Position numbers and translations under genes: made by a program. From Xenococcaceae cyanobacterium MO_188.B32 (lineage in GTDB: Bacteria; Cyanobacteriota; Cyanobacteriia; Cyanobacteriales; Xenococcaceae): a stretch of 50,827 nt of DNA. The notes below the pieces were generated by a model that was not told the origin of the DNA, did not search any database, and worked only from the letters and a program-made list of their open reading frames with translations. This document shows, piece after piece, positions 663-41,318 of this stretch (position 1 is the first letter of the stretch; the number at the start of each line of letters is the position of its first letter). The stretch covers positions 1 through 50,827 of the forward strand of contig JASJDJ010000022.1 in assembly GCA_030065635.1 (NCBI GenBank), written 5' to 3'.

Positions 663-736
663 TGGCTCGGGGCAGATTTGAACTGCCGACCTTGGGCTTA
701 TGAGTCCCCTGCTCTAACCAACTGAGCTACCGAGCC
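663..736 (-). tRNA. tRNA with CAT anticodon, probably elongator tRNA-Met
   Basis: The complement folds as a 74-nt cloverleaf. It has an acceptor stem GGCTCGG/CCGAGCC, a D arm GCTC/GAGC, an anticodon loop CTCATAA, a 5-nt variable loop, a T stem GGCAG/CTGCC with loop TTCAAAT, and discriminator A. CCA is not encoded. Anticodon CAT fits elongator Met or, if modified to lysidine, Ile2. The acceptor start and D arm resemble bacterial elongator tRNA-Met, so I prefer that. The anticodon stem has only three Watson-Crick pairs, flanked by A-G and G-A oppositions. Confidence 0.85.
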
Positions 737-25428: not shown

Positions 25429-25456
25429 AACAACTAACAACTAACAACTAACCCCT
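25429..25456. repeat. Heptanucleotide tandem repeat abutting the fetB stop
   Basis: Units AACAACT three times, then AACCCCT. The last unit reaches the first base of the stop codon (complement of TCA at 25456-25458). Confidence 0.75.
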
Positions 25457-26235: not shown

Positions 26236-26381
26236 TATGAGTTATTCTTTATCTATATTTGGAGTAATTTTAAAATTCTATTACTTACAGACAAGCGTAA
26301 ATCAAAAACTTCATATGCTAATTGTCTGACCATGCTCTATGATTAAGAGCAAAATTTAATTTTATTGAAAATAATATCTTA

Positions 26382-27524
26382 GTGAGCAGAGTGAAAAAGA
26401 TTCCTCCTGTCGATTTAACCAGACAATATCAAGTCATTAGCGAAGAAGCAACTCAAACTGTTATCGAAATTCTTAATTCTGGTCGTTATATTGGTGGTAC
26501 AGCCGTTACTACTTTTGAGCAAGAATTTGCCAACTATCTCGGTGTAAATAAATGCGTTGGTTGTAATTCTGGTACAGATGCTCTATATATGGCTTTAAGA
26601 GCCTTGGATATCGGGCAAGGAGATGAAGTTATCACTACTCCTTTTACTTTCATTGCTACAGCAGAAGTAATTACCAGAGTAGGTGCAACACCAGTATTTG
26701 TCGATATTGAAGCCGATACTTTTAATTTCGATCTACAACAAGTTTCCGCAGCTATTACCCCTAAAACCAAAGCAATTATTCCCGTACATCTATTTGGACA
26801 ACCAGTAGATATGCAAAGGTTAATGGAAATTGCCCAGGCACATAATCTCTATGTAATTGAAGACTGCGCCCAAGCCACAGGGGCAGAATGGAATGGTCAA
26901 AAAGTTGGTAGCATCGGACATATTGGTTGTTTTAGCTTCTTTCCCACTAAAAATTTAGGTGCTTGTGGTGATGGTGGTGCTTTAACTACTAATGATAAAG
27001 CGATCGCCTCCCAAGTAATAATGTTAAGAGAACACGGTCTAAAAACCCGCTATAGTCACGAGTTAACAGGAATTAATAGCCGTTTGGATAGTATTCAAGC
27101 AGCCCTACTTTCTATTAAACTCCGTTATCTAGATAGTTGGAATCAACAACGACAGCAAGCAGCAGCCTATTATCACCAACTACTACAACCTGTTACTGGG
27201 GTTAAACTTCCTCAAGCTTTAGCAGGTGGTACAAGCGTCTGGAATCAATATACTATTCAAATAAAAGACGATCGACTAGATGGAGAACCACGACGCGATC
27301 GAGTTAGGCAAAAATTAGCAGAAATGGGGGTTATTGCCATGGTTTATTATCCTCTCCCCCTTCATTTACAACCCGTTTATCAGGATTTAGGCTATCGATC
27401 GGGTCAACTACCCGTTGCAGAACAAGCTGCCCGTGAAGTGCTATCTTTACCTATGTTTCCAGGTATTTTAGAGGAAGAACAGGAACAGATAGTTTATAGC
27501 CTCAAAGATTGTCTTTCAACATAA
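26382..27524 (+). CDS. DegT/DnrJ/EryC1/StrS-family aminotransferase
   Basis: A 380-residue PLP-dependent aminotransferase that typically converts a keto-sugar nucleotide to an amino sugar for surface glycans. The PLP lysine is Lys190 in CFSFFPTKNLGACGDGGA. Other family blocks are CNSGTDALYMALRAL (61-75), TTPFTFIATAEVI, PVHLFGQP and EDCAQATGAEW. A GTG at 26382 starts the frame. It is separated by 20 kb from the sugar operon at the right end. Regulation is not evident. Confidence 0.9.
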   Translation: MSRVKKIPPVDLTRQYQVISEEATQTVIEILNSGRYIGGTAVTTFEQEFANYLGVNKCVGCNSGTDALYMALRALDIGQGDEVITTPFTFIATAEVITRVGATPVFVDIEADTFNFDLQQVSAAITPKTKAIIPVHLFGQPVDMQRLMEIAQAHNLYVIEDCAQATGAEWNGQKVGSIGHIGCFSFFPTKNLGACGDGGALTTNDKAIASQVIMLREHGLKTRYSHELTGINSRLDSIQAALLSIKLRYLDSWNQQRQQAAAYYHQLLQPVTGVKLPQALAGGTSVWNQYTIQIKDDRLDGEPRRDRVRQKLAEMGVIAMVYYPLPLHLQPVYQDLGYRSGQLPVAEQAAREVLSLPMFPGILEEEQEQIVYSLKDCLST

Positions 27525-27607
27525 ATTACTAGTTGAGTAAGGGAACAGGGACTCACAATTATGGATTTTTTACATCTAGGAAAAATTAGAAAAAAACAAA
27601 GTTTATT

Positions 27608-27730
27608 TAGGGCTTGCTGAATAAGTCAAAAACTCTTTATTCATAAGGATATGAAGCTGTTTTGAGCTGCGCCCGATGCAAGGTTTTTTAAGAATTTTGG
27701 TCATTTTCTTTGCATTTGGGCACATACAGA
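27608..27730. mobile_element. Probable insertion-sequence end or solo remnant
   Basis: The stretch opens with GGGCTTGCTGAATAAGTC and continues with GAGCTGCGCCCGATGCAAGG and TTTTGGTCATTTTCTTTGCA. I remember this as the non-coding end of a common cyanobacterial insertion sequence or related MITE. There is no transposase frame and no matching opposite end, so it is a scar. This identification is from memory of sequence style only. Confidence 0.4.
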
Positions 27731-27751
27731 CTAATTATTATCATGACTTGT

Positions 27752-28867
27752 TTACCTTTGCAAGCTGCGGGGATCTAAAGCATCTCTCAAACCATCCCCT
27801 AATAAACTAAATGCCAATACCGTGAGGATAATTAACAAGGCTGGAGGCCAAATTAACCAGGGTTGTAAGACTAAAATTGAGGCATTAGTAGCGATCGACA
27901 GAAGATTACCCCAACTAGGATCGGGTTGTTGGATACCCAACCCAAGGAGACTGAGTACTGATTCTGCTACGATAAAGCTAGGTACGGCTAAGGTTGCAGA
28001 AATAATAATGTAGGTTGCCGTTTGGGGTAAAACATGACGCACGATAATATATAGAGGTTTTGCGCCCATGGCTTTAGCTGCTTGCACGAACTCCCTTTGT
28101 TTGAGAGATAGTACCTGTCCTCTAATTATTCTTGCTAATCCCGACCAACTAATAAAAGAAGTAATTAACACAATTAATAAAAAGCGTTGTGCGCTACTCA
28201 AACCAGGTGGTAAAACGGCTGCTAAAGCTACTAGTAAATAAATGCTCGGAATAGTCATCAATACTTCGACTAAACGCATTAAAATAGCATCAATCCAACC
28301 ACCAAAATAACCAGAAATCCCCCCGACTAACATCCCCAAAGGGAAAGAAATGGTAATCCCTACTAAGCCAATAAAGAGACTAATTCTACCCCCAAAGATT
28401 AAACGGCTAAATTCGTCTCTTCCTTGTTCGTCTGTGCCTAAAAGATTAATTTTGCCCTCACCGATGGTACCAAATAGATGGCGTTGCCAAGGAATACCAC
28501 CGAAAACCGTTACTTCTTCAAAATTAGGGGGTAGAGGTAAAGTAATTTGAAATAAATTATAAGGTGTCCCTTTTACAAACAGACGTATAGGGGAAGGTTG
28601 AGAAAAATCTACTCTTAATTCTCGATCGCCTGTTTCCACTTCTGTCGGGCCTAAAGTAGTAGGATAAACATGAGGGCCAATCCATTCTCCTTCAGGCGAT
28701 CGCCAGTAAATTTCGGTTGGTGGTAATAGAGAACCATCTGTCTGAGATGAATAGGGGTCGTAGGGAGCAACAAAATCGGCAAAAATTACCGCTACATAAA
28801 ATATAATCAGTAAAATAGCCCCAAACCTTGCCAAAGGATTTTTTTTGAGTTTTCGCCACCAGTCCAT
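27752..28867 (-). CDS. ABC transporter permease, DppC/OppC type
   Basis: A 371-residue inner-membrane permease of the peptide/nickel importer family. The N-terminus KKNPLARFGAILLIIFYVAV with FADFVAPYDPY matches DppC. A roughly 90-residue extracytoplasmic insert follows. The conserved core has LLGTDEQGRDEFSRLIFGGR, then five or so helices and the ATPase-contact EAA loop region REFVQAAKAMGAKPLYIIVR. Oligopeptides are the usual cargo. No other subunit gene is adjacent, which is common in cyanobacteria. Confidence 0.9.
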   Translation of the reverse strand: MDWWRKLKKNPLARFGAILLIIFYVAVIFADFVAPYDPYSSQTDGSLLPPTEIYWRSPEGEWIGPHVYPTTLGPTEVETGDRELRVDFSQPSPIRLFVKGTPYNLFQITLPLPPNFEEVTVFGGIPWQRHLFGTIGEGKINLLGTDEQGRDEFSRLIFGGRISLFIGLVGITISFPLGMLVGGISGYFGGWIDAILMRLVEVLMTIPSIYLLVALAAVLPPGLSSAQRFLLIVLITSFISWSGLARIIRGQVLSLKQREFVQAAKAMGAKPLYIIVRHVLPQTATYIIISATLAVPSFIVAESVLSLLGLGIQQPDPSWGNLLSIATNASILVLQPWLIWPPALLIILTVLAFSLLGDGLRDALDPRSLQR

Positions 28868-29006
28868 ATTCGTCTCCAGTCAACTCAGACAAGCCAATAA
28901 TCAACAACTATAAGATAATTATCCAAAAAATTGTTTAACACTCCTGACTTCTTTACGGGTAAAGTAATGTTTTGCTTCTGTTTTAAGCGAATTTATTTTA
29001 AATAAT

Positions 29007-29831
29007 TTAAGCTGACTTAGCTCTAATAAACTGTTCTACTAAAATTAAGACATCATTACGAGTTAGTTTTTCTTTTCCTGACGCAATAGCCTCTAAAGTG
29101 CCATAAGCTAAAGCCAGAGGAATTTGGCAAAAATCTAATGCCGGACCTGAAGTTAAAGATTGAGTATATAGATCGGCTAATTTAAGATTACGACGGGCGT
29201 AAGCTTGCATATCTTTGATAGTCCAATCAGCAGGTAAAAAATCAACTCCTCGTCTTAAATCTTCACTATGATTGCGCACGATATTTACTGCTTGTAAGCC
29301 ACGACCAAAACCAATAGCATAGGCACGATTAGTTTGAGTTCCATCATACCAAGCCCATAAGTCAGAGAGTAATAGTCCGACTGCACCCGCGACACTAAAA
29401 GTATAACGATCTAAATCTGCTTCTGTGTGAATAGTCCAATTATTTTCTGCCCAATATGCCATACGAGCTGCCATAGCTGCTGTAGCATCCCAAATACGTG
29501 GTGCAATAGTTTCTGGTGCCAGTATCGACCATTCGCCGATTTGTAAGGTAACTTCGGGTAAAATTTGTTGATAAGCTTCCAAACCTTGGGTGAAATGGTG
29601 GGAAGGAGAATTAAAGACAGTTGCTTGTAAATTTAGACTAATCTGCTTTAATAATTTTGCCTTAGTGAAATTATCTAATTCTGAATGATCTTCAATTTCA
29701 TCGATCGCCCGCATACATAAGTAAGCTGAAGCTACTGCTGCTTGCAATTTTTCGGGTAAGAGACTAATGGGAATATAAAAAGTCCGACTCGTTGTCTTAA
29801 GGACTTCCAAAGCATGGGTATGCAAATTCAT
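29007..29831 (-). CDS. Squalene/phytoene synthase family protein
   Basis: A 274-residue head-to-head prenyl synthase relative. The first aspartate-rich motif is DEIED at 44-48 within CMRAIDEIED. The second region reads NIVRNHSEDLRRG (183-195), where the usual first Asp of DxxxD is Asn187 and Asp191 is kept. SRTFYIPISLLP near 15-26 matches the family start. The length is like the family's. Substitution at the metal-binding Asp makes squalene or phytoene synthesis uncertain, and I recall a subfamily with Asn at this position. No carotenoid or hopanoid gene is adjacent. Confidence 0.75.
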   Translation of the reverse strand: MNLHTHALEVLKTTSRTFYIPISLLPEKLQAAVASAYLCMRAIDEIEDHSELDNFTKAKLLKQISLNLQATVFNSPSHHFTQGLEAYQQILPEVTLQIGEWSILAPETIAPRIWDATAAMAARMAYWAENNWTIHTEADLDRYTFSVAGAVGLLLSDLWAWYDGTQTNRAYAIGFGRGLQAVNIVRNHSEDLRRGVDFLPADWTIKDMQAYARRNLKLADLYTQSLTSGPALDFCQIPLALAYGTLEAIASGKEKLTRNDVLILVEQFIRAKSA

Positions 29832-30051
29832 TCAAATAACTCCTCACACTAACTTGATTGATAGCATACACTGAACTACTACTATATGGATTAGGTAAAG
29901 TTTAAAATTTTGGCTAGATTAGCGAGGAGAATAGGGTAATAACTATACTTTTTTTTTAAAGATACACTGTTGACTTATTGCTAGTTCCATGAGGTAATCT
30001 CATTTCAGAGTAAAATCTACCTCAAATCCAATTTATCGAGCTATCGAGCTA

Positions 30052-31917
30052 ATGTCTAAAAAAATTATTTTTCTTTGCCAATTGGTAACTTTATGGTGGG
30101 CAAAGGCAGAATTACCTACTATCGCTAATGAGGTAGTTAATATCTCCGAACAAGATGCAACCCCTCTAATATCGGAGACAAAAGAAACAACTCCACCAGT
30201 TCTTTTTACCATCAGTCCTTTGCTCGATCGCGTTTTTACTCAACCCACAGCCAAACATCTACGCCAAGGAGAAGTAATTTTTAACCTAGATAATCGTTTG
30301 TTTTTTTTACCTGACTTAGTACCGGGTGGAATTGACAATAATGATACAGCCCTTAACTATGGTGGTGGTTTTAGTTGGGGAATTACAGATAAGTTGGAAC
30401 TAACACTGCAATTTCAGCACGTAGACAGCAGTTTCCCCGCCAAACAGGGAGATTTTATCTCTGAACGGACAGAAGATAATGAAGCAGCTATAGAAATAAA
30501 ACAACAATTATGGCAAAACCCTGACAATACTAAATCTCTTAGTGGGGTTGTTTCTGCTTCTTGGGGGACTCGCGGATTCATGTTTACCAGAGATAACGAA
30601 GAAGTCGAAATTAATAATCGAGATATTTTTCTGGCATTTCAACTTCCTTTTACGGCTACGGTAGATCGAAGATGGCAATTTACTATTTCTCCTACTCTTG
30701 CCTTGTTCAATGATGAAAATGCTGGTTTTTACCATCGTCTTCCCAACGATAACGAAAGTTCTTTTGGTACTACTTTTGGTTTTACTGGTGCTGTTTCTTA
30801 TAGTCTCAGTCCCCGACTCGCTATTTGGGGAGACGCATTTATTCCTATTACGGGCAACAATAGTATTAGTCGAGAGTCAGGTGAGCCAGATACAGCGATC
30901 GCCTATAATGCTGGGATACGTTATCTATTTAATCCTCGTTTGGCACTCGATCTTTATGCTTCCAATACCCAGGGTAGTATAGGACCTTTGGCTTTAACGG
31001 GCGATCGAGATTTTGTTGCTTTTGGGACTAATCTGATTTTTATGCCAGATTTGTTTGCTGCTAACCGTCGCCAACCAGATCGATTTTCCTCCGCCCGACA
31101 AAATGATGATACTCCCACTCCTGTTGTCAACAGTGGTATTGCCTTTTTTGATGGAGGAACACTAGATAGCGGACAATTTTTAGTAAATGTGCAAGGAGGT
31201 AGTCAAGGCGTTCTTACTTCCTTACGCTATGGCTTTCTCAAGGATTTTGAAGCAGGTATTTACCTAGATTACGTATCGGGAGAAGTAGATGAGTCGGAAC
31301 AAGGATTTAGTGCCAAAATAAGATTTTTAAATCAAGCTGAAGATGATCCTCTTACTGCTAGTCTTGCTGTTACTATTGGTCTTACCAATCAACCTTTTGT
31401 TAACTTTTTCAATAACGACCGCGATGAATTCGATCGACGGGGTTTAGAAAAAGAAGTACCTATTGCCATTCCTGGTGCAGATAGTGCAGAAGAAAGAAAG
31501 GAATTTATATTTACTGCATCTGTCCCCCTCAATTACCAATTTGATAATAATGCAGCTATTTGGTTCACTCCTACTATCGGCTATGTCCAGCGTCTAAGTA
31601 CTGAAATTGCTGGATTTAATGTGGGTGGTTCTATTCCTATTACCCAAGAATTCAGTATTTTAGGGGAAGTGGGTGCCAACTTTGCTGGCGAGGGTAATGG
31701 TTTTATTGGTGATGAGTTAGCAGATTTGATTCCTTGGACTGTCGGTATTCGTTGGCAACCTCTATCTCTGTTTGGTTTAGAACCTTCTGCTAGTAATACA
31801 AATCCTCAATTAGAACTATATCTTACCAATCGCGTAGGTTCTTCTACTTGGCATCAACTTCGAGTCAGAGATCAAAATAAAACTGCCGTTGGTGTTGGTT
31901 TGATTTTACCGTTTTAG
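30052..31917 (+). CDS. Probable outer-membrane beta-barrel protein
   Basis: A 621-residue protein. The N-terminus is a probable signal peptide (about 1-20). The rest is rich in alternating aromatic and polar residues with many short strands, as in FSWGITDKLELTLQFQHV and FAVSYSLSPRLA-like blocks. It ends in GVGLILPF, a terminal Phe typical of barrel proteins that use the BAM insertion signal. Two similar halves are suggested by repeated blocks (RYGFLKDFEAGIYLDYVSG and similar). I recognise no specific family. Function could be a porin or a surface protein. Its promoter region has a direct repeat TCGAGCTA just before the ATG. Confidence 0.65.
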   Translation: MSKKIIFLCQLVTLWWAKAELPTIANEVVNISEQDATPLISETKETTPPVLFTISPLLDRVFTQPTAKHLRQGEVIFNLDNRLFFLPDLVPGGIDNNDTALNYGGGFSWGITDKLELTLQFQHVDSSFPAKQGDFISERTEDNEAAIEIKQQLWQNPDNTKSLSGVVSASWGTRGFMFTRDNEEVEINNRDIFLAFQLPFTATVDRRWQFTISPTLALFNDENAGFYHRLPNDNESSFGTTFGFTGAVSYSLSPRLAIWGDAFIPITGNNSISRESGEPDTAIAYNAGIRYLFNPRLALDLYASNTQGSIGPLALTGDRDFVAFGTNLIFMPDLFAANRRQPDRFSSARQNDDTPTPVVNSGIAFFDGGTLDSGQFLVNVQGGSQGVLTSLRYGFLKDFEAGIYLDYVSGEVDESEQGFSAKIRFLNQAEDDPLTASLAVTIGLTNQPFVNFFNNDRDEFDRRGLEKEVPIAIPGADSAEERKEFIFTASVPLNYQFDNNAAIWFTPTIGYVQRLSTEIAGFNVGGSIPITQEFSILGEVGANFAGEGNGFIGDELADLIPWTVGIRWQPLSLFGLEPSASNTNPQLELYLTNRVGSSTWHQLRVRDQNKTAVGVGLILPF

Positions 31918-32177
31918 TTATTATCAAAAACGCTCTTGCAGTACCAGACTAGACTCAAACAGCAAATCGCGATTTTGGCAGGATGTCTATTGATTTGACC
32001 GAAGGCAATCAAAACTGTTTATGCTAGATTTGGTGTAGCTGGAAAGCGGGACTTGGTTCGACTTCCGAAACTCATCTTGTTAAATGACACTTAGTTAGTT
32101 GTGCCTCCATTCCCCTATCCAGTTTTTGTATTTTTGCAATAGCATATAAGAATACAAAAAAAAAAGGTTAATGACTG

Positions 32178-33644
32178 ATGAAAACTTGGCTAGAGCAAGT
32201 AGCCGATATCGAACGAGAAGACATATTAATGTTTATCAATTCTTGTTTTACTTGCACTGGACAAAAAGAATTTTATAGCGATGCGGAAGGACAAAAAGTA
32301 TCGCTCAACTTTTTACACGATTATATTTTAGGTAACTATCGTTTGCTATACGCTCGTACCTTAGCAGCAGGAATTAATCATTTTAATATCGGTCAAATAA
32401 TTATCAAGCTGCTAGCTACAGGTAAAGATACCTTACCAGAACATAAAGAAGAAGAAGGACAATTAATTGCTCGGGCATTGCAAAATTTACCAACCCAAAG
32501 AGCTTGGAAAGTATTGGCACAACTGCAAACACTCCGTATTAACAATCGTCGTAGCAGAGCCATTGTCAGAGATTATCTTCAACAAAGAAAAGAGCTTAGT
32601 TTTGACGCGGTAAAATATCGCCTAAAGCTAAAATCGATCGCGGTTCATAATCATTTGTCATTAGAGGGGGAATTAGGAACTTTTCTATTTACTCCTCAAC
32701 AACCGAAGAGATATCAAAATGAGTTATTTGAAAACTTCAGACAGGCTCATTTTACTGCTGAGGCAATTTACAAATTACCTTTTACCATTGCCGAAGGATT
32801 GGCAGCAAAAAAAGGTATACCCCGCGCTGAATTTCTAACTCGTATCGAACCGCAAATGACTAGAGGGGAAAAGTTGCGTTATTTGCAGACAGCAGAAAGA
32901 GTTAGTACTCGCACCAAACAAGTTAAGTTAGATGTAGACTGGCAGCGTCTTTCGTTAACTCGTCTGGCATTATATATATTATCTCTCTCGATCGAGGATA
33001 GAAAAGCAGAATTCGCTTTATTACAAAAAGCATTAGTAACATCTGCTCAGAGAACCTGTAAAAAAACTGGTTTAAAATTGGGAAAAGTAGCTGCCATTCT
33101 CGATTGTAGCTATTCTGCTTCTGGTTCTGTCGAAAAACGCCGTCGTCCTTTGGGAATTGCCTTAGCAGCCCACTATTTGCTAGAAAAATGCGCTTCTGAA
33201 TATCGTTCTTTTTGGACGATACCAGTATCCGAGCCCTTACTCGTTCAAGCACGAGGACAAACCGATTTAGCAACACCATTACTCGATGCTTTGGAATGGA
33301 AAGCAGATTTAGTAATTATCATTTCTGATGGCTACGAAAACGATCCCCCAGAAGGGGCAGCAGAAGTACTACGGATATATAGAACCAAACTCGATCGCTC
33401 TCGTCAAACTTCTATTATTCACTGTAATCCCGTGTTCGCTCCCGATACTTTTTCTCCCTATATTTTGAGTCCTTATATTCCCACTCTCGGTATAAGAGAA
33501 GCAGAAGACTTACCAACTCTGATTAATTTTGCCCGTTTTGCTGACGGTGATGTATCTCTAAAAGAATTAGAAGATTATTTAGCGTTGAGAGTTCAGCAAA
33601 TGTTAACTACAAGTGAGTTCACAGTTCATTATGATGCAAAATAG
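32178..33644 (+). CDS. VWA-domain protein with an alpha-helical, TROVE-like N-terminus
   Basis: A 488-residue soluble protein. Residues 1-290 are predicted helical and include GEKLRYLQTAER, resembling the HEAT-like TROVE module of Ro60 proteins. Residues about 300-470 form a von Willebrand A domain with a complete metal-binding MIDAS: Asp309-x-Ser311-x-Ser313 (DCSYS), Thr362 (GQTD) and Asp384-Gly385 (ISDGYEND). VWA domains bind partner proteins through the metal. The next gene follows after 92 bases and encodes an ARPP-like protein with a helix-turn-helix. Ro60 homologues bind misfolded or Y RNAs, but RNA binding here is only a guess. Confidence 0.65.
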   Translation: MKTWLEQVADIEREDILMFINSCFTCTGQKEFYSDAEGQKVSLNFLHDYILGNYRLLYARTLAAGINHFNIGQIIIKLLATGKDTLPEHKEEEGQLIARALQNLPTQRAWKVLAQLQTLRINNRRSRAIVRDYLQQRKELSFDAVKYRLKLKSIAVHNHLSLEGELGTFLFTPQQPKRYQNELFENFRQAHFTAEAIYKLPFTIAEGLAAKKGIPRAEFLTRIEPQMTRGEKLRYLQTAERVSTRTKQVKLDVDWQRLSLTRLALYILSLSIEDRKAEFALLQKALVTSAQRTCKKTGLKLGKVAAILDCSYSASGSVEKRRRPLGIALAAHYLLEKCASEYRSFWTIPVSEPLLVQARGQTDLATPLLDALEWKADLVIIISDGYENDPPEGAAEVLRIYRTKLDRSRQTSIIHCNPVFAPDTFSPYILSPYIPTLGIREAEDLPTLINFARFADGDVSLKELEDYLALRVQQMLTTSEFTVHYDAK

Positions 33645-33692
33645 CAACCTAATAAGTACCCGAACAAGATCATTGGTATATTTTTAAACTTT

Positions 33693-33727
33693 TACTAACT
33701 ACTAACTACTAACCACTAACCACTACC
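33693..33727. repeat. Heptanucleotide tandem repeat, five units
   Basis: Units TACTAAC three times, CACTAAC and CACTACC. It ends ten bases before the TTG start of the ARPP-like gene, where a ribosome-binding site would be expected. Confidence 0.8.
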
Positions 33728-33736
33728 TAATTAATT

Positions 33737-34900
33737 TTGTCCAACTACTTATCCGATATCCAGCTAACAGGACTAGAAATTGCACCATCTCAAGTAAGGG
33801 GTGCGATTAGAATTGTACCGCTCCTAAAACATAACGTCCGTTATGACTTAAGACTACAGGGTTATAAATACGAAGAACCTTTAGCGATGGTATCTCTTTC
33901 AGGAGAATTATTCGATCGAGGAATTAAATACTGTAGCTATATTCCCGATGGCTTAGTAATGTCTTGGAGTAATGATGGTTCTCCCGTTGTAGCTTCGGGT
34001 ACTCAGTTAGGTTCTGCCAAAGGGAAAAAAATGCTCGGTGGTTTATTAAGAGTCATCCCCCGCATGAGTAAAAAGATCGATCGCGATCGACTGCGCTTTT
34101 TACCTCTACACTTGGCAATGGAAGGTTTTTTAGCGATGTTTTTTTCTGGCCCTGAAATTGCTTGGAGTGACTATTCTAGACGCGCTCGCTCTCAAGGATT
34201 AAATCCCCGTTGGGAAATTAGTTATAGCGGTAGAAGTATTATAGGCTTAGAAGATGCGTTGCGAGTATTTGAAATTCACCAAAGACAAGTAGGAGTTATT
34301 ATTTTTGTTGCTGAAGAGTTAGCCTCAGTATTTGTTGTCCCCACTCCTGAAGACTATCGTGCTTTGCATACTAGTTTACTTCAAGACTTTTACGGCGAGT
34401 TAATTTTTCAATATGCCTGTATGTATCAAACTACTTACCCGATGAATATGACAGTAGATGATGACAAAATTAATAATCTTGAGGATTTAAAGCAAGAAAT
34501 AGAGCAGGTTAGAACTTCTTGGGCTGATTGGCAAGGTTTTATGGCGAGTAGTTTATTACAGCGTCCAGTAAAAACCCAACAGGTTTATAAAGCTGGTTCG
34601 TTTACCCTACAGCGTTTCCTTACCGATCTCGATTCTCATCAAATAAATCATATCGGTGAAGCAATAGTAAGGGATACGGGCGAGTTAGAATACCTTAAAA
34701 CTTATCGTCTTTCCGAGACTCAAACTAAAAGAATCCATCTCTTAAGTAAACTAGCTGAGTACAATTGGAATTTAAATGATACAGCAGCAGGTTTGAAGAT
34801 CGGCAGAGATGAATTAATTCGTCGTTTTAAAAGAACTGGCTTGGATTATTTATTGACAGAACAGGCTACAAGATTAAAAGATTTTAATATCGATAACTGA
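33737..34900 (+). CDS. ARPP-like protein with a C-terminal Fis-type helix-turn-helix
   Basis: A 387-residue protein. Residues about 8-235 resemble the ARPP families (ARG and rhodanese-phosphatase superfamily-associated proteins): an N-terminal strand region VRGAIRIVPLL and a late strand-helix unit QVGVIIFVAEELASVFVVPT followed by PEDYRALHTSLLQDFYGELI. Residues 335-372 (LAEYNWNLNDTAAGLKIGRD) look like a Fis/NtrC-type DNA-binding helix-turn-helix. The start is TTG, with no upstream ATG in frame and no clear ribosome-binding site. It lies between the VWA gene (92 bases) and the LpxB-like gene (9 bases). ARPP families have, as I recall, been tied to predicted conflict systems; no activity is known here. 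Confidence 0.55.
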   Translation: MSNYLSDIQLTGLEIAPSQVRGAIRIVPLLKHNVRYDLRLQGYKYEEPLAMVSLSGELFDRGIKYCSYIPDGLVMSWSNDGSPVVASGTQLGSAKGKKMLGGLLRVIPRMSKKIDRDRLRFLPLHLAMEGFLAMFFSGPEIAWSDYSRRARSQGLNPRWEISYSGRSIIGLEDALRVFEIHQRQVGVIIFVAEELASVFVVPTPEDYRALHTSLLQDFYGELIFQYACMYQTTYPMNMTVDDDKINNLEDLKQEIEQVRTSWADWQGFMASSLLQRPVKTQQVYKAGSFTLQRFLTDLDSHQINHIGEAIVRDTGELEYLKTYRLSETQTKRIHLLSKLAEYNWNLNDTAAGLKIGRDELIRRFKRTGLDYLLTEQATRLKDFNIDN

Positions 34901-34909
34901 AAAGAATTC

Positions 34910-36205
34910 ATGCAGCCAATCGACATTGTTATACTTTCTAACGGACCCGGAGAAGTCGCTACTTGGGTACGTCCCGTAGTTAAAGCATTGCGGGCAGAAC
35001 TAAGAGACGATCGCGCTTCTTTGAGAATATCTGTAGTTTTGTCTCATTGCCCCCATGCTACTGGCAAAGAAGCGGATATTGTTGCTAGTTATCCAGAAGT
35101 AGACAGAGTTCAATCAGCCCAACATTTCTTTCCTTTTCTCCTTTGGGGAAAAACCGCCGATAATTGGGATTGGCGCAAACAAGGAATTGTCATTTTTTTA
35201 GGTGGCGATCAATTTTATACCCTGGCGATCGGTAAACGTCTCGGTTATCGCACCTTAGTATATGCAGAATGGGATGCTCGTTGGTATCGCTGGATCGATC
35301 GCTTTGCAATAATGAAAGCAGAAGTCATGACGAAAATTCCTCCTCAGTATCATCACAAATTTACTGTGGTAGGGGACTTAATCGCAGACATAGTCCAAGA
35401 AATAAACACTAAACCCACAATATGTAAGGGCGGTTCGCGAACCGCCCCTACGGCTAATACCTTAATCGGACTCTTACCAGGTTCAAAACCAGCCAAACTA
35501 GCCCAAGGAGTACCTTTGTGTCTGGCGATCGCTGAAAAAATTCACGCACGACAACCTGAGGTTAATTTTATTATCCCCGTTGCCCCAACTTTAGAGCTAG
35601 AGACATTAGCTAACTATGCCAATCCCCAATTCAATCCAGTTATCGATTTAATAGGTGGTGTTAGCGGAAAACTAATTTTAGCAGGAGATCGATCGCCATC
35701 TTCATTTTTATTAACTAGTGGCGGAACAAAAATAAAACTAATTACTCAATTTCCTGCTTACCAATTTTTAGTTCAATGTCAATTATGTCTGACTACTGTT
35801 GGTGCCAATACTGCGGAATTAGGTTCTTTGGGAATTCCTATGATTGTCTTGTTGCCTACACAACAATTAGATGCTATGAGAGCTTGGAACGGTATCCCAG
35901 GAATGTTATCTAATTTACCAGGCGTAGGCACGCTCTTTGCTAGTACGATTAATTGGTTAATTCTCAGACAAAAACGTTTATTTGCTTGGCCCAACATTTG
36001 GGCGAAAAAGCAAATAGTTCCAGAAGTAGTTGGTCAGATTACAGCAGATACTATTGCAGCAATGGTCTTGGATTTGTTGGCTTCTCCAGAGCGATTAATA
36101 GCGATGCACAATCTCTTGTTACAAGTGAGAGGAAGATCGGGAGCATCCCAAAAACTAGCCTGTATAATTAGACAAAAACTTTTAACAAATCTTGATGAAA
36201 TCTAA
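34910..36205 (+). CDS. LpxB-like GT-B glycosyltransferase
   Basis: A 431-residue protein resembling lipid-A-disaccharide synthase and related GT-B enzymes, which join sugars on a lipid carrier. It begins DIVILSNGPGEVATWVRPVV and continues with LGGDQFYTLAIGKRLGYRT. A donor-side region follows with LTTVGANTAELGSLGIPMIV near 299-318. Residues about 171-183 (ICKGGSRTAPTAN) are encoded by a perfect GC-rich palindrome at 35428-35447, apparently an in-frame repeat insertion between two conserved blocks. It starts nine bases after the ARPP-like gene and is likely co-transcribed with it. The sugar is unknown. Confidence 0.7.
   Translation: MQPIDIVILSNGPGEVATWVRPVVKALRAELRDDRASLRISVVLSHCPHATGKEADIVASYPEVDRVQSAQHFFPFLLWGKTADNWDWRKQGIVIFLGGDQFYTLAIGKRLGYRTLVYAEWDARWYRWIDRFAIMKAEVMTKIPPQYHHKFTVVGDLIADIVQEINTKPTICKGGSRTAPTANTLIGLLPGSKPAKLAQGVPLCLAIAEKIHARQPEVNFIIPVAPTLELETLANYANPQFNPVIDLIGGVSGKLILAGDRSPSSFLLTSGGTKIKLITQFPAYQFLVQCQLCLTTVGANTAELGSLGIPMIVLLPTQQLDAMRAWNGIPGMLSNLPGVGTLFASTINWLILRQKRLFAWPNIWAKKQIVPEVVGQITADTIAAMVLDLLASPERLIAMHNLLLQVRGRSGASQKLACIIRQKLLTNLDEI
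35424..35451. repeat. GC-rich palindromic repeat inside the LpxB-like gene
   Basis: A 20-bp perfect palindrome GGGCGGTTCGCGAACCGCCC (35428-35447) with GTA/TAC flanks. It lies within the coding sequence and stays in frame. This is a typical dispersed cyanobacterial palindrome. Confidence 0.85.
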
Positions 36206-36355
36206 AATATCTAAAATTTAGTTAGCGAAATTTTGCTGGAATAATGGTTATTGCTATGATAACCTGAGGAGAAATAGGATGCTTTGTCTGAATATTTTAA
36301 TTTGCTTCGATTATTTTTTTGGTAAACCATAACTTATTTATACTTTTAAAAAAAA

Positions 36356-36486
36356 CTAGGGTGGCAAAATACACTGGACTGGCAATTTAAACGTAGTAAA
36401 TCCGTTATCACTCGAAAATTAAATCTACGTGTTTAAGCCTGTTCAAACAACATAAAAAACTTCTCTAGTCAATTTTGCCACCCTAG
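36356..36486. mobile_element. MITE-like element with 15-bp terminal inverted repeats
   Basis: Perfect terminal inverted repeats CTAGGGTGGCAAAAT (36356-36370) and its complement (36472-36486) bound a 131-bp element. Inside, a second inverted pair ACGTAG/CTACGT (36391-36396, 36424-36429) lies around a short spacer. Both flanks have eight A residues, which could be a target duplication. No coding potential is present. Confidence 0.75.
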
Positions 36487-36523
36487 AAAAAAAGGATTAC
36501 TGTTATTTTTCCGAAGGTGAATC

Positions 36524-36750
36524 TCACCGTTCGCTTATTTTTTTGGCGGTTTCTAAAATTGAACTTACACTGTATATAGTGTAGATAACTTTTATAAACA
36601 CTATATATCGATTGAGGGGATGGGTTTTTTCTGGCGATCGCCAGAAAAAAAGAATTTCACTCCGGCGCTCGCGCTCATCAAAAAACCCTACAATCCTTTT
36701 ATCTCGTAAGCAATTTTTCACTCCTCATTTTAAAATGGGCGAACGGTGAG
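36524..36750. mobile_element. Second MITE-like element, 19-bp terminal inverted repeats
   Basis: CTCACCGTTCGCTTATTTT at 36524-36542 is the complement of the right end (36732-36750) with two mismatches, bounding 227 bp. Inside are a 16-bp near-palindrome ACACTGTATATAGTGT and a perfect 26-bp palindrome. No clear target duplication is seen. The right end is 35 bases upstream of the next gene. Confidence 0.65.
36625..36650. repeat. Perfect 26-bp palindrome centred on HIP1
   Basis: Six T, CTGGCGATCGCCAG, six A: perfectly palindromic, with the HIP1 octamer GCGATCGC at its centre. It could act as a bidirectional terminator-like hairpin in the spacer. Confidence 0.85.
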
Positions 36751-36785
36751 GTAAATAACTCACTATACTTAACATATTGTCTCAA

Positions 36786-38021
36786 ATGAAAATTAATGCG
36801 CTCTCTGCCAACAGTATCGTTCTTAAATTTATGCCAGGAGCAGTTATATTTATAACTTTTGGGGGAACTTTTAACAACACTGCTGTTGCTTCTAGCTTAA
36901 TAATGCAAGAAAAGAATAGCTACAATTTAGAAGAATTGAGTTATTTTAGTCTTAAATTAGATCGGGATATTTACAATCAACTAGAGAAAGAAATTTTAAA
37001 GCAAGAATCCGACTTTTCTGACTACATCAAACTGATTGATAGTGGATTGAGGCTCCCTCGATATCGCCTACAGGCGGAGCCTACCCTAAATATATTAGTC
37101 CAATCTGAAAAAAATAGAGAGGAAACATCATTTTTATCTTTTGTGGATAGCCTAAAGAAAATAGAATTTCAAGCATTTGCAGTGAATCCTTCCTCTCAAA
37201 CATCTGTACCTGTTTTACCTCAAGTAAACTATAGAAATGTCTATAAAGATGTATATGATTTTAGTATTAACTTAACCAACTCTTCCCAGAAAAAAACCTC
37301 TGTCAGTAGAGTGCCAAGAACTATTGTTAGAACTCAGCAACTGCCAGAAGATAAATATTTTTCCAGTTCTTTCATGAGAAAAAAATCTCCTAGTTATCCA
37401 TCATATAAGAGTCAACCGAGTATTATAAATAATAATAACTTTCATACAAATAATACTAATTCTTCTTTACTAGCACCTTCTCAAAAAAGACCTGTTTTAG
37501 ATAGTTTAACGAGTTCGCCTGTAGCTGGTTTATCCTTGGTAAATAATACAAGTCAAAGCCGACTCGGTCGTTTTACGGCGCAGCTTGCTCTGGACGTTGG
37601 TGACACTCCTTTTCAAGAAAATATTGTTGCTGATATTAACGGCCAAACCTACGACCAAAATTATTTAAAGCGTAATGATGATGATTTTCAGATAACAGAT
37701 AAAATACAGCCTGTTTATCTTCCCTCTACTAATATGGAAATTTATCAGATCGGCAAAATCGATATACCATCGCTTTTGAGTAGCTATAAAAAACCAGAAT
37801 ATCAAGAAGAACTCGATAAAGATATCCAAAAAAAGGAAAAGGAAATTCAAAAACAAAGACAAGAACTGTCCAAAAAGCTAGCTAAACTCAAAAAAGAAAG
37901 AGAACATAATCGAAAAAAAGAACTAGCAAACTATAGGAAGCAAAGACAACAACAATTAGTTAAAGCAATGAAAAATCAGCAAAGATTACAGGAGCAAAGA
38001 CAACGACAATTTAAATATTAG
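36786..38021 (+). CDS. Unrecognised secreted or anchored protein with a basic coiled-coil tail
   Basis: A 411-residue protein that I do not recognise. ATG 36786 is chosen; an earlier TTG adds three residues. Residues about 12-40 are hydrophobic, ending in NNTAVASS, a likely signal peptide. The middle (about 130-330) is Ser/Asn/Pro-rich and probably disordered. Residues about 335-411 are a Lys/Gln/Arg/Glu-rich coiled coil (QKKEKEIQKQRQEL), ending in Tyr. Residues near 89-101 (LRLPRYRLQAEPT) are encoded by an imperfect palindrome that looks like an inserted repeat. It sits just downstream of two MITE-like elements, in the most repeat-rich part of the window. Confidence 0.5.
   Translation: MKINALSANSIVLKFMPGAVIFITFGGTFNNTAVASSLIMQEKNSYNLEELSYFSLKLDRDIYNQLEKEILKQESDFSDYIKLIDSGLRLPRYRLQAEPTLNILVQSEKNREETSFLSFVDSLKKIEFQAFAVNPSSQTSVPVLPQVNYRNVYKDVYDFSINLTNSSQKKTSVSRVPRTIVRTQQLPEDKYFSSSFMRKKSPSYPSYKSQPSIINNNNFHTNNTNSSLLAPSQKRPVLDSLTSSPVAGLSLVNNTSQSRLGRFTAQLALDVGDTPFQENIVADINGQTYDQNYLKRNDDDFQITDKIQPVYLPSTNMEIYQIGKIDIPSLLSSYKKPEYQEELDKDIQKKEKEIQKQRQELSKKLAKLKKEREHNRKKELANYRKQRQQQLVKAMKNQQRLQEQRQRQFKY
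37050..37082. repeat. Imperfect GC-rich palindrome inside the coding sequence
   Basis: The right arm AGGCGGAGCCT (37072-37082) pairs with AGGCTCC (37050-37056) and GCCT (37066-37069), with a 9-base bulge. It remains in frame in the gene. Confidence 0.6.
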
Positions 38022-38059
38022 ATTATTATCTGCGGGTACTTAAACTTGATTTTTTGTGA

Positions 38060-38100
38060 GGGGCTGACCCCGCCCTCGAAGGGCGGGGCTTGTACGCCCC
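38060..38100. repeat. GC-rich palindromic repeat
   Basis: CCCCGCCCT/AGGGCGGGG (38068-38076, 38080-38088) with a three-base loop inside an outer GGGGC/GCCCC pair. It sits 39 bases after the preceding gene's stop, so may also slow transcription. Confidence 0.75.
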
Positions 38101-38148
38101 GTCAGAAATCGCTGCTTAAGAGTATGTCAAACTAAAGTCGTACATCTA

Positions 38149-38273
38149 CACAACTTGGAAGGTTTCTCTGAAATCATTATAAATTGGGGACTATAGAGAT
38201 CGAACATAAGTACTGTTTTAACGAAATTACGTTGTTTGAGTCTTGCTTAAAAATGCTAACCTTCCAAGTCGTG
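38149..38273. mobile_element. MITE with 16-bp inverted ends and a 7-bp target duplication
   Basis: A 125-bp element. The ends CACAACTTGGAAGGTT (38149-38164) and the complement of 38258-38273 match at 15 of 16 positions. A direct repeat ACATCTA flanks it exactly (38142-38148 and 38274-38280), as expected for a target-site duplication. No coding potential is present. Confidence 0.85.
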
Positions 38274-38320
38274 ACATCTAACATTAAAAAGAAAAAAGAC
38301 ATTATTAACTTTAACTTAAT

Positions 38321-39343
38321 TTACGGATGTGTACTACCGTCAGGCATAATTGTTCCTTTGAGGTTAATCCCACTTAAGATGCTGTTTTGAAGATTAGCTC
38401 CTCTGATATCTGCGCCTCGAAGATAAACATCAATTAAACTGGCATTTTGTAAAATAACATATTGCATTTTAGTTTCATGCAATAGAGCAAATCTTAAATT
38501 GGCATTTTTTAAATTTACTTTTTCTAAATTTGCTCTACTCAAATTAGCCGAACTAAAATCTACTCGACTGAGTTGATTTAACCCTGGCAAATTTAATTCG
38601 GAGATAGTTGCTAAACTAGTTCTGGCTTCTTTTAATAAAGCACCAGTCAAATCCGCTCCCCGTAAATTGGCTCCCCGAAAATTAGCTCCTTTGAGTATTG
38701 CCTGTTGTAAATTAGATTTTTGCAGATTACTCTCGCTCAGATCGGCTTTATTGAGATTGACATTAGTTAAATTGGCGTTTTTAAGATTTGCATGACTTAA
38801 ATCGGCACGACTAAAATCCGCGCCTTCTAGATTAACTCCACTTAGGTTGGCACCACTAAGATCGGCACGATTAAAATTAGCTCCTTCTAGATTAGCTCTA
38901 CTCAGATTGGCACCCCTAAGATTGGCACGATTAAAATTAGCTCTTTCTAGATTGGCTCCACTCAGGTTTGCATCACTTAAATTTGCATCTCTTAAATCCG
39001 TATTGCTTAAAAAAGATTGATTGAGATTAGCATTGCTCAAATCTACCCGAATGAGAATAGCTCCATCTAAGTTAGCCCAACTAAGATCTGCTCCGACTAA
39101 ATCGGCACCTTTAAGATTAGCTTCTATTAATTTGGCTCCAATCAGTCTAGCATGGAGTAAATCGGCACGACTGAGATTTGCCTTAGTTAAGTTTGTCCCA
39201 CTAAAGTTAATCCAATCTAACTGAGTACGACTTAAATCAATTGCTGGCAAATTACCTTGAATAATCTCGGCTTGACTTAAATCTGTGCGACTAAAATCCC
39301 TTTTTCCAGTTTGATAGAGCCATGTTAGTTCTTCGCCGTTCAT
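38321..39343 (-). CDS. Pentapeptide-repeat protein
   Basis: A 340-residue protein made almost wholly of tandem A(D/N)LXX pentapeptides (for example ANLSGANLERANFNRANLRG), so it should fold as a right-handed quadrilateral beta-helix. A short helical start (MNGEELTWLYQTGKRDF) caps it. The repeat register is interrupted near 225-250 by EARTSLATISELNLPGLNQL, which may be a loop. Such proteins are abundant in cyanobacteria and mostly of unknown function. It is located between a MITE and leuD. Confidence 0.9.
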   Translation of the reverse strand: MNGEELTWLYQTGKRDFSRTDLSQAEIIQGNLPAIDLSRTQLDWINFSGTNLTKANLSRADLLHARLIGAKLIEANLKGADLVGADLSWANLDGAILIRVDLSNANLNQSFLSNTDLRDANLSDANLSGANLERANFNRANLRGANLSRANLEGANFNRADLSGANLSGVNLEGADFSRADLSHANLKNANLTNVNLNKADLSESNLQKSNLQQAILKGANFRGANLRGADLTGALLKEARTSLATISELNLPGLNQLSRVDFSSANLSRANLEKVNLKNANLRFALLHETKMQYVILQNASLIDVYLRGADIRGANLQNSILSGINLKGTIMPDGSTHP

Positions 39344-39385
39344 TTATTGATCGATAAATAACTCAGCCACTACTCTATTCTGTAA

Positions 39386-39982
39386 TTAAGAAGTTTGCCA
39401 CTGTAGATAAGGTAACTGAGCCGTAGTTGCTTTAATTTGCTCTACAGAACTAATTAATTGACTACAATTATCCCAAGTACCTGTTAACAATCTTTGTCTC
39501 GAACCCTCATCCATACTTACACTGGTAGTTAATCCCTCGCAGCTAATTTTCATAGCTTCTAGATCGATATTCAAATTAGTTTGAGGAGTGTTTGTCAGTA
39601 GAGTTTGTAGTTTTTCCACTGTTTGTCGATCGCAGGTAACGCAAGGCAAACCAATAGCGACACAATTACCGAAGAAAATTTCGGCAAAGCTTTCGCCAAC
39701 AATGGCTTTAATTCCCCATCTGGCTAGGGCTTGAGGGGCGTGTTCTCTAGAAGAGCCACAACCAAAGTTATTATTAACTACTAAGATATTGGCATCTTGG
39801 TATTGAGGAAGATCGAAGGGATGTTTTCCTTTAGTTTGAACTCGATCGTCGGCAAAGGCTTGTTTTCCTAAACCATCAAAAGTAACACAACGCAGAAATC
39901 TGGCGGGAATAATTCTATCGGTATCGATATCATTACCAATAACTGGGACACCCGTACCAATAATTTGTTTAATTTGAGTCAT
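39386..39982 (-). CDS. leuD: 3-isopropylmalate dehydratase small subunit
   Basis: A 198-residue subunit of the leucine-pathway isomerase that converts 2-isopropylmalate to 3-isopropylmalate; the large subunit LeuC carries the iron-sulfur cluster. Family motifs are GNDIDTDRIIPARFLR (16-31), NNFGCGSSREHAPQAL (71-86) and GLPCVTCDR. The length is typical. leuC is not in the window. It starts 40 bases downstream of the next minus-strand gene's stop, so the two could be co-transcribed. Confidence 0.93.
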   Translation of the reverse strand: MTQIKQIIGTGVPVIGNDIDTDRIIPARFLRCVTFDGLGKQAFADDRVQTKGKHPFDLPQYQDANILVVNNNFGCGSSREHAPQALARWGIKAIVGESFAEIFFGNCVAIGLPCVTCDRQTVEKLQTLLTNTPQTNLNIDLEAMKISCEGLTTSVSMDEGSRQRLLTGTWDNCSQLISSVEQIKATTAQLPYLQWQTS

Positions 39983-40022
39983 AAATTTAGTTTTGTTGAT
40001 ATTGCTGCTAAAGATAATTTAA

Positions 40023-41318
40023 TCACGAACCCGATTCTAATCTTTGTTGCCATTCTCGATCGTCTCGATCGATATTTTTAAGATTCTGATCTAGTAAATC
40101 TGTTTCTGTGGTATAGGTTATATCGCGATCGCTAATTACTTTTGTCTGGGCAAATTGACGGGCAAAAGACATTTTTTGTCGTACATCTTCACCTGCCTGA
40201 TTGAGAGCAACTGCTCTAGCTTGACGAACAGAATTGCGGGTTTCTATTTTTTTATTTCGTCCTTGAATCCAGAAATAACGAATTAGAGGAACTGCTAAAA
40301 AAGCCGTACCATAGCCCAACAGTAGCCAATAAATAGAAGCAACTAGAGCAACTATACCTCCTAATTCCGCAGCAACCGTACCATCTTGAAGAAGAGAACC
40401 TAACACCAAAGCAAGAATTAAATTAAGCCCACCTAAACCAATAGACAGCATAATTTGCCCACTGCTTGCTTGGCTAAAACGCCATAAAATTTCTTGTAAA
40501 TAAGCCGATACTGGTTGAGGTTTTCTTTCCTTTGCCATTACCTGCAATTCAGGAAAATAATAGATAATTTCTCCTTGGGGAGATACTTCTGGATATCCAT
40601 TGAAACGACTTAAAACTGGCAACATATAATCTTCGTCTGCATCGACTTCGTCTAGATAAGGCGCAATTTGTTCGGCAACCACAGCACCATTATTATTCCG
40701 AATTACTGCGCCAATTTTTTGCCATCTTTCTTCGGCTAAATTCTCATTGGGATTACCATCACCGAAAAGAAAAGAGAAAATAGCTTCCAGAAAATTTATT
40801 TGAGACTGTCCAGAAACTTGTTGTCTGCGTTGACGACGGTATGTATTATAGTTGGGGTCGAAAAACCAAAATAAATCGCCGATCCAGAAGCGGGGTATAA
40901 ACATAAAGCCACCTCCGCGATTATATCCTCGATCGCGATCGTCTCCATCACGGCTAGAACTAACTGAAATAACAATAACCGCGATCGCTACTAGCATCAA
41001 AATGATAGAAGCGATTAAAATAATCCCGAAAGAAATGCGAATTATATAAAAGAGTACTTTCCAAACTTTTTCCCACCACTGTTGCAGTCTCAGACTCCAA
41101 TATTTATCCCGCAGAATAGAGCGAAAATTTTTGGGGAAGAGATACAAAATTTCTCCCGAATCTGCTACTTGCATATGTCCGCCAGCATCAGCAGCTAAAG
41201 CTAATAATCCTTGCTGGGCTAAATTGAGTTCTAGTCCCGCTTGTGCTGCTACGTCGCCGACAGTAACGCGATAATTCAGTTGTTCAACTGATTTGACTAT
41301 TTGGGGATTAGGAGTCAT
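40023..41318 (-). CDS. Conserved membrane protein of cyanobacteria and plastids
   Basis: A 431-residue protein. Residues 10-75 form a winged-helix-like region (RVTVGDVAAQAGLELNLAQQ), followed by LYLFPKNFRSILRDKYWSLR at about 59-78. Transmembrane segments lie at about 85-120 and, as a hairpin, at about 285-340. The middle (residues about 215-262) repeats the winged-helix theme (RFNGYPEVSPQGEIIYYFPE). I recall chloroplast homologues in plants annotated loosely with iron-sulfur biogenesis, but no function is established. It could be a membrane-tethered protein with a DNA- or protein-binding domain. Confidence 0.55.
   Translation of the reverse strand: MTPNPQIVKSVEQLNYRVTVGDVAAQAGLELNLAQQGLLALAADAGGHMQVADSGEILYLFPKNFRSILRDKYWSLRLQQWWEKVWKVLFYIIRISFGIILIASIILMLVAIAVIVISVSSSRDGDDRDRGYNRGGGFMFIPRFWIGDLFWFFDPNYNTYRRQRRQQVSGQSQINFLEAIFSFLFGDGNPNENLAEERWQKIGAVIRNNNGAVVAEQIAPYLDEVDADEDYMLPVLSRFNGYPEVSPQGEIIYYFPELQVMAKERKPQPVSAYLQEILWRFSQASSGQIMLSIGLGGLNLILALVLGSLLQDGTVAAELGGIVALVASIYWLLLGYGTAFLAVPLIRYFWIQGRNKKIETRNSVRQARAVALNQAGEDVRQKMSFARQFAQTKVISDRDITYTTETDLLDQNLKNIDRDDREWQQRLESGS

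Follow-up and report, generated by a model that had tools for sequence, protein, structure and literature searches.

What do two adjacent genes of Xenococcaceae cyanobacterium MO_188.B32 form together, when one encodes a protein with a VWA domain and the other a protein with an ARPP domain? The two genes, here called A and B, lie on the forward strand of the 50,827-nucleotide (nt) stretch of DNA that was analysed (the window; contig JASJDJ010000022.1 of assembly GCA_030065635.1, our contig C164), one of 281 contigs in a genome of 6.39 Mb. Both open reading frames had been proposed in an earlier note on this DNA and both were confirmed, A with 488 residues and an ATG start and B with 387 residues and a TTG start (Table 1). 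That note missed a conserved RNA upstream of A, here called R1, which points to a ribonucleoprotein or to an RNA control element instead. Our analysis leans slightly towards the view that the locus is a diverged ribonucleoprotein of the Ro/Y-RNA type, with ARPP-2 as its third component. Four results were established directly: the conserved structure of R1, its near-perfect co-occurrence with A, the linkage of A and B, and the Ro60-like predicted fold of A.

A structured RNA conserved upstream of gene A

A scan of named genomes found 106 relatives of A, of which the best 80 were analysed, giving 81 loci with the window. On inspection of the upstream sequences, an element of about 95 nt was seen to be common to these regions. 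A loose pattern, searched on the strand of A, placed R1 upstream of A in 78 of the 81 loci. In two of the three remaining loci (L072 and L103) the contig ends no more than 261 nt upstream, and the third (L071) has no copy in 1.5 kb, where the R1 model found none either. One pattern match, 216 nt upstream in L095, was left out of the alignment because the rest of it departs from the family pattern. The final set has 87 copies, nine loci containing two diverged copies each. The search pattern fixed or restricted alignment columns 13-18 and 27-34, and conservation there is therefore partly by construction; the pattern left all 3' partners and 18 of the 24 5' columns unconstrained.

The consensus has a 9-pair outer stem, one unpaired pyrimidine in the 5' arm, a GGG/CCC helix, an internal loop whose 5' side starts with ACU and whose 3' side has 6-8 nt, an 8-pair second stem, a UUCCG motif and a small hairpin. 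The bulged pyrimidine, in a column left free by the pattern, is C in 69 and U in 18 of the 87 copies. In the window, the outer stem pairs 32038-32046 with 32115-32123 and contains one A-A mismatch (32044/32117; alignment columns 9 and 88). It is followed by the bulged C (32047), GGG/CCC (32048-32050/32112-32114), the internal loop, stem P2 (32055-32062/32098-32105), UUCCG (32063-32067) and the small hairpin P3. In seven loci with two copies (L061, L062, L063, L073, L080, L084 and L088), the one nearer A carries CCGUUCC and the farther one mostly CCGAACC, so that two types of RNA seem, from these motifs, to be kept in such loci.

RNAalifold predicted three helices with 24 pairs over the 87 copies, 19 of them with double-sided compensatory changes. 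Paired cells amount to 95.2%, against 77.2% in shuffled and at most 45.1% in slid controls, and the covariation score is 0.600, against 0.239 after shuffling (0 of 500 as high) and at most 0.146 after sliding; the shuffle figures are not probabilities, because the rows of the alignment are related. Folded as single sequences, the window copy (z -3.09) and five other copies (z -2.9 to -6.1) were all better than every shuffle. At gathering threshold, Rfam matched neither the R1 region in the window nor six loci on four distinct contigs, and it gave no credible match at E ≤ 10 for two single copies. ARAGORN detected only a tRNA-Met in the window (663-736), and the consensus of R1 contains no branch points, so no tRNA-like module was seen. 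A GGTTCGA stretch in the window had suggested a T-arm like that of YrlA-type RNAs, an idea that was dropped when a strict search found the stretch in few other loci.

The R1 model, whose training alignment includes the window copy, was searched on both strands. In the source genome it found the copy of the window and no other. Among 100 genomes, source genome included, A of clade 1 (above 50% identity) occurs in 12 and a distant relative (30-38%) in six. R1 matches below E 1e-12 were found in exactly those 12 genomes, each of which has a copy upstream of A; three weak matches (E 0.016-0.03) occur in two other genomes. Among 386 genomes of the phylum, R1 (E ≤ 0.001) was detected in 16, all of them among the 17 with clade-1 A; in the seventeenth, the contig of A ends at most 3 bases from the gene fragment. 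The R1 copies lie outside the training alignment in 5 of the 12 and 9 of the 16 genomes, including the very divergent ones of G102 (40.6 bits) and G113 (53.2 bits). Of 13 genomes chosen for holding R1 at A, 11 have a single copy, one has a known tandem pair, and one has a second copy, which adjoins a second, partial A gene. One orphan copy was found (genome G072, locus L151 1501-1595). One base of its GGG is changed, A is 3.6 Mb away, and no match to A or B was seen within 1.5 kb; in this genome A is truncated and no ARPP-2 was found.

A box resembling a -10 promoter element is enriched where transcription starting at the outer stem of R1 would begin. Of 86 copies, 31 have TGNTANNNT at a distance of 8-40 bases upstream of the GGGAC anchor, against 2.8 expected from base shuffles of the same stretches, and in 36 the start of the best hexamer falls 21-22 bases 5' of the anchor. 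Copy L130, too near the start of its contig, was omitted from these counts. The corresponding site of the window (Table 1) was not listed by a generic promoter scan.

The A and B proteins and their linkage

The earlier note had read a complete metal site (MIDAS) in the VWA domain of A, behind a helical N-terminus like the TROVE module of Ro60, and both features held. Residues D309, S311, S313 and D384 are present in 42 of 42 homologues, and T362 is found in 41, with S in the remaining one. The N-terminus is helical in an AlphaFold model made from nine homologues (mean predicted local distance difference test, pLDDT, 69.1), and the structural matches include Ro60/Rsr. Foldseek retrieved nine PDB chains with this model at E ≤ 1e-3; every one of them is Ro60/Rsr, and human Ro60 (9nen, E 1.9e-7) scores best. 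VIA-align matched the model to the TROVE structure 9kop (Z 16.1, root-mean-square deviation (rmsd) 6.7, 342 aligned residues), to Ro60 of a Thermus phage (Z 15.2) and to the Ro autoantigen 2i91 (Z 14.2). Eight Ro60/TROVE entries have Z 12.3-16.1 and the matches span at most residues 10-476, whereas entries with VWA only begin at Z 11.9 and are confined to the C-terminal domain of A.

VWA models of Pfam reached one of the 42 homologues at E ≤ 0.1 (E 0.032), and searches of Pfam, NCBIfam and PDB sequences with A gave nothing reliable. A separate canonical TROVE gene is present in the same genome (contig C49, locus L212 582-2210, 542 aa). A is thus Ro60-like by predicted fold over nearly its whole length, and we do not file it as a member of the Ro60 family because it has no match to the Pfam TROVE model.

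The ARPP-like domain that had been assigned to B is ARPP-2 (Pfam PF22549, E 3.1e-107). B scores 358 bits against a curated cut-off of 27, and 41 of 41 homologues match at E ≤ 0.01. The residues identical in all 41 include E129, W143, Y146, R158, E160, E179, Q184, D206, Y207, H211 and D217, a pattern that suggests a ligand or active site. The cysteine of ARPP-1 (PF20208) is not conserved in B, where the best Cys column, maybe near the ARPP-1 site, reaches 16 of 41; in six ARPP-1 sister proteins, four columns are Cys throughout (6/6). The Fis-type helix-turn-helix (HTH) that the earlier note saw in B finds moderate support. The five best VIA rows for the C-terminus are the DNA-binding domains of NtrX, NtrC4 and NtrC1 (Z 6.1-6.4, rmsd 1.8-4.5, 45-57 residues), in a range, below Z 8, that can reflect merely a common arrangement. 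Low-Z matches of B outside this region (Z up to 5.8) were set aside; VIA listed no ARPP relative, a result without bearing on the fold of B. A Fis/NtrC-type HTH is therefore likely but not firm, because Pfam HTH models match few of the 41 homologues (HTH_8 two at E ≤ 0.01, HTH_28 three and HTH_23 one).

In 75 of the 80 related loci, A is followed by B on the same strand. The gap between profile ends varies from -30 to 2002 nt, is at most 520 nt in 70 of the 75, and in some loci holds one or two small genes. In L082, one of the five loci without B downstream, the contig ends just past A; the other four (L077, L098, L117 and L127) have ARPP-2 elsewhere in the genome. The earlier note would have given up its proposal had A and B lacked structural relatives or had their homologues never been neighbours; A has a structural match, B has a Pfam match, and the pair is conserved.

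The 80 loci comprise 53 from cyanobacteria (one of them Sericytochromatia) and 27 others, labelled as Myxococcota or related deltaproteobacteria, Planctomycetota, a gammaproteobacterial Chromatiales symbiont, and one 'Comamonas' record whose label is doubtful. ARPP-2 was found in 17 of the 100 genomes, 13 above the cut-off, a count that includes fragments in G007 and G016 and weak matches in ARPP-1-type genes. On the conjugative plasmid pNe_3 of Nostoc edaphicum (L231) the RNA-A-B unit is flanked by transposase genes, and the module therefore also travels on mobile DNA. Viral contigs yielded neither a close relative of A nor an exact match to the one R1 core pattern searched there.

Table 1. 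Coordinates of the features of the A-B locus in the window
Feature	Position	Strand	Basis
Extended -10-like box (TATGCTAGAT)	32020..32029	+	8 bases 5' of the R1 outer stem
Conserved structured RNA R1	32036..32131	+	Model R1, 63.6 bits, E 1.8e-14
Gene A, Ro60-like by predicted fold: TROVE-like helical N-terminus and VWA with intact MIDAS	32178..33644	+	Foldseek, VIA, MIDAS conservation
Gene B: ARPP-2 domain (residues 8-287) and probable C-terminal Fis/NtrC-type HTH (about 325-370)	33737..34900	+	Pfam PF22549, VIA

Genomic surroundings and related modules

Two further features had been linked to the pair. The tandem repeat between A and B exists (33693-33729, 5.3 copies of a 7-nt unit) and is one of several arrays with a period of 7 or 14 nt in the window. 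The LpxB-like reading frame indeed starts 9 bases after B, but its similarity to LpxB (Pfam) is weak, and it was rejected as a third partner because no relative occurs in the 20 regions examined around related genes. Both features look incidental to the A-B module. Ten neighbours in the window (25456-41318) were scanned with Pfam. They comprise UPF0014, a DegT aminotransferase, an oligopeptide permease, a squalene/phytoene synthase, a beta-barrel protein, weakly LpxB-like and weakly OmpH-like proteins, pentapeptide repeats, an aconitase C-terminal domain and one protein without match; those with a match are metabolic, transport or structural. Recurrent neighbours among the 80 loci are lineage-specific, as far as the largest clusters, few of them annotated, were read.

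In 11 of the 80 loci, in Nostocales (for example L061 4241-7732), a divergent NACHT-type gene lies near the RNA-A-B unit. One of these genes is a 92-residue piece, and the single annotated representative carries EAD4 and NACHT. A gene of the alr0857 family, annotated in one representative, is found near the unit in 14 of the 80 loci. In L134 and on pNe_3, XisH/XisI genes are inserted between A and B.

A sister clade has a VWA protein (hhalign probability 99% to A) beside a protein of ARPP-1 type. It was found at six loci (L050-L055, in genomes G079, G089, G064, G086, G041 and G034, respectively), of which L050 and L052 were tested with Pfam. The association of a Ro-like VWA protein with ARPP therefore seems, from these sequences, to be old. 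Several sister operons carry TGTAGTAT repeated about 11 nt apart upstream, promoter- or operator-like.

Plasmid pB6464 of Alkaliphilus sp. B6464 (L229) harbors a distant homologue of A and an ARPP-1 (DUF6569) gene, with a TerD-family gene further upstream. The 194 nt upstream of this A homologue (L229 5331-5524) contain ACUUUAUGCGAUUUCCGA and fold with z -4.36 into an 11-pair outer stem, a 2-by-2 loop, 3 pairs, an internal loop, an 8-pair second stem and a much larger apical part. A 140-nt piece of the region that lacks the 3' half has z -1.08, with 36 of 200 shuffles as low. An unannotated pair of A-like and ARPP-1-like genes is also present in LR756500.1, a 462-kb uncultured phage (L230 5911-8537).

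Ribonucleoprotein, leader or conflict system

The locus was compared with the Ro60/Rsr systems outlined in parts of PMC4726728 and PMC7790460, namely the Deinococcus complex of Rsr, Y RNA and PNPase and the Salmonella rsr-yrlBA-rtcBA operon. Rsr of Deinococcus acts after UV irradiation and during starvation, according to PMC4726728. A resembles Ro60/Rsr in its predicted TROVE-like ring and VWA domain with MIDAS. As in the systems described there, the protein gene is accompanied by a small structured RNA whose ends pair and which carries a bulged pyrimidine, and a further gene follows downstream. Set against the Y RNA account in PMC4726728, R1 has a similar layout of paired ends, a single bulged pyrimidine in the 5' arm, 3 bp, an internal loop and an upper stem; the likeness is one of architecture, not of sequence. 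The partner gene encodes ARPP-2 and not RtcB/RtcA, R1 lacks the tRNA-like part of YrlA-type Y RNAs, Pfam TROVE and VWA models miss A, and the canonical TROVE gene of the genome is a separate one. A Y RNA is encoded beside a gene of the Ro60 family, whereas the protein whose gene R1 precedes is Ro60-like by fold alone.

If the locus is a ribonucleoprotein of this kind, R1, the Ro60-like ring of A and the ARPP-2/HTH protein B would probably come from one transcription unit, and R1 would accumulate as a discrete RNA. A would probably bind R1 through its TROVE-like helices, which may recognise the outer stem, including its bulged pyrimidine, together with the conserved core of GGG, ACU and UUCCG. 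As in Ro60, the ring would be closed by the VWA domain and its metal site. The RNA would stabilise A, gate its ring, or serve as a tether for another protein, the role that Y RNA has in Deinococcus between Rsr and PNPase. B, the putative third component, may act on RNA or ribose ends or adjust expression through its HTH.

Several observations count against this interpretation. The A model has a mean pLDDT of 69 and an rmsd of 5-7 Å to Ro60/TROVE structures, and two Ro60/Rsr entries (9nen, Z 10.7, and 2nvo, Z 10.0) rank under some VWA-only entries in VIA. Pfam TROVE (PF05731) matches none of the 42 A homologues at E ≤ 0.1, nor A of the window at E ≤ 1. An hhalign comparison of the A profile (42 rows) with seven canonical cyanobacterial TROVE proteins is co-linear over 367 columns, but its probability of 7.2% (E 0.005) is not significant. 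The model of B (10-row alignment) has a mean pLDDT of 40, with 70-85 at residues 331-370, and no solved structure related by sequence to its ARPP domain was found. As for the RNA, no Rfam family, Y RNAs included, matches R1; its lower stem has 9 bp and a loop of 6-8 nt opposite, where the Y RNA as given in PMC4726728 has 7 bp and a 3-nt bulge; and its double-sided pairs are less striking than its other scores (19 against a shuffled mean of 16.2, 1 of 500). R1 was not found at the VWA and ARPP-1 pairs of cyanobacteria with default filters, nor with filters off (12 loci, best E 0.5, nothing credible), and the phage pair showed none. The Alkaliphilus RNA, R1-like in its lower architecture, is suggestive only, because it was found by eye after the R1 model had missed it, and it has a 2-by-2 loop at the position of the single bulge of R1. 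Finally, the outer stem of R1 ends at most 41 nt from the start of A in 55 of 78 loci, as measured to the extrapolated profile start of A and not to an annotated start.

This last point also fits a different reading, which we hold to be a good deal less probable: R1 would act in cis as the 5' leader of the A-B operon. It would fold where the mRNA begins and be bound by A, by B or by a ligand to control transcription or translation, which would make it a riboswitch or an autoregulatory element and no stable partner RNA. Ribosomal-protein-type leaders and riboswitches are cis-acting mRNA leaders of this sort, and R1 resembles them as a conserved structure upstream of one operon. Nearly all copies lie upstream of A on its strand, the -10-like box is placed for a transcription start at the outer stem, and in L081 and L083 R1 stands about 30 nt before an alr0857-like gene, which itself precedes A. 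The close spacing favours a leader, but the gap is 150-572 nt in 10 of the 78 loci by the same measure, nine loci have two diverged copies, and there is the orphan far from A. The long gaps and the double copies, together with the Ro-like protein, speak for a partner RNA. Position alone is not decisive, because in some bacteria the Y RNA shares an operon with its Ro gene, according to PMC7790460. Moreover, a leader to which a Ro-like protein binds would mimic a Y RNA in its own right, so that the two readings overlap, and under either of them binding of R1 by A is likely.

Two other explanations fare worse. The locus could be an anti-phage or stress conflict system, similar to clusters of ARG, rhodanese-phosphatase, vWA and ARPP genes, with A as a peptide-binding chaperone and B acting on ADP-ribose or sugar moieties. 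ARPP and vWA (chaperone) genes both occur in ARG-centred systems according to section 3.8 of PMC9503650; B contains a full-length match to ARPP-2 (PF22549), and the sister pairs of other cyanobacteria combine VWA with ARPP-1 (PF20208). The patchy distribution of A (12 of 100 genomes), the plasmid copies and the NACHT-type gene upstream in 11 of 80 loci would also fit. We nevertheless consider this improbable. B differs by its probable C-terminal HTH, by the lack of the cysteines invariant in ARPP-1 and by the dedicated RNA upstream of the operon, and a conflict system leaves that RNA and the Ro60-like fold unexplained. No ARG or phosphatase gene is among the ten window neighbours scanned, and among the top neighbour clusters of the 80 loci, few of which were annotated or scanned, no gene for an ARG, phosphatase, macro or nuclease protein was seen to recur. 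The recurrent neighbours are lineage-specific, and the window flanks are of the ordinary kinds given above. PADLOC gave no credible match (none for A at E ≤ 1, one for B at E 0.02, none for four sister-pair proteins). The portion of PMC9503650 on ARPP genes gives three further two-gene contexts, with HIRAN, WYL and deacetylase, none of them with a Ro60-like partner. Still further from the data is the proposal of the earlier note, a metal-dependent VWA sensor coupled to B as DNA-binding responder. The intact MIDAS and the probable HTH agree with it, but we found no sign of sensing or of signalling between A and B, and the strict co-occurrence of A with R1 points elsewhere; we regard it as very improbable.

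No description of the A-B pair or of R1 was found in the literature searched, a limited collection, and novelty in print is therefore not proven. We propose, tentatively and with somewhat less than even confidence, that the locus represents a new class of bacterial ribonucleoprotein, in which a Ro60-like ring with its own Y-RNA-like RNA recruits an ARPP-2/HTH protein in place of PNPase or RtcB. Neither ring nor RNA would be recognisable in sequence as a known Ro/Y system, and the class would be spread over Cyanobacteria, Myxococcota and Planctomycetota, on conjugative plasmids and, in divergent form, on a plasmid of Bacillota. This analysis adds R1 as an RNA family that Rfam does not match, and gives a testable context to ARPP-2, for which no described function was found in the literature searched. 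Myxococcus and Nostoc are genera with laboratory genetics, and since the module is present in them the question is directly testable. If true, a second, sequence-distinct combination of a Ro-like ring and an RNA would show what is essential in the Ro/Y design: paired ends, a bulged pyrimidine, a ring and a metal site.

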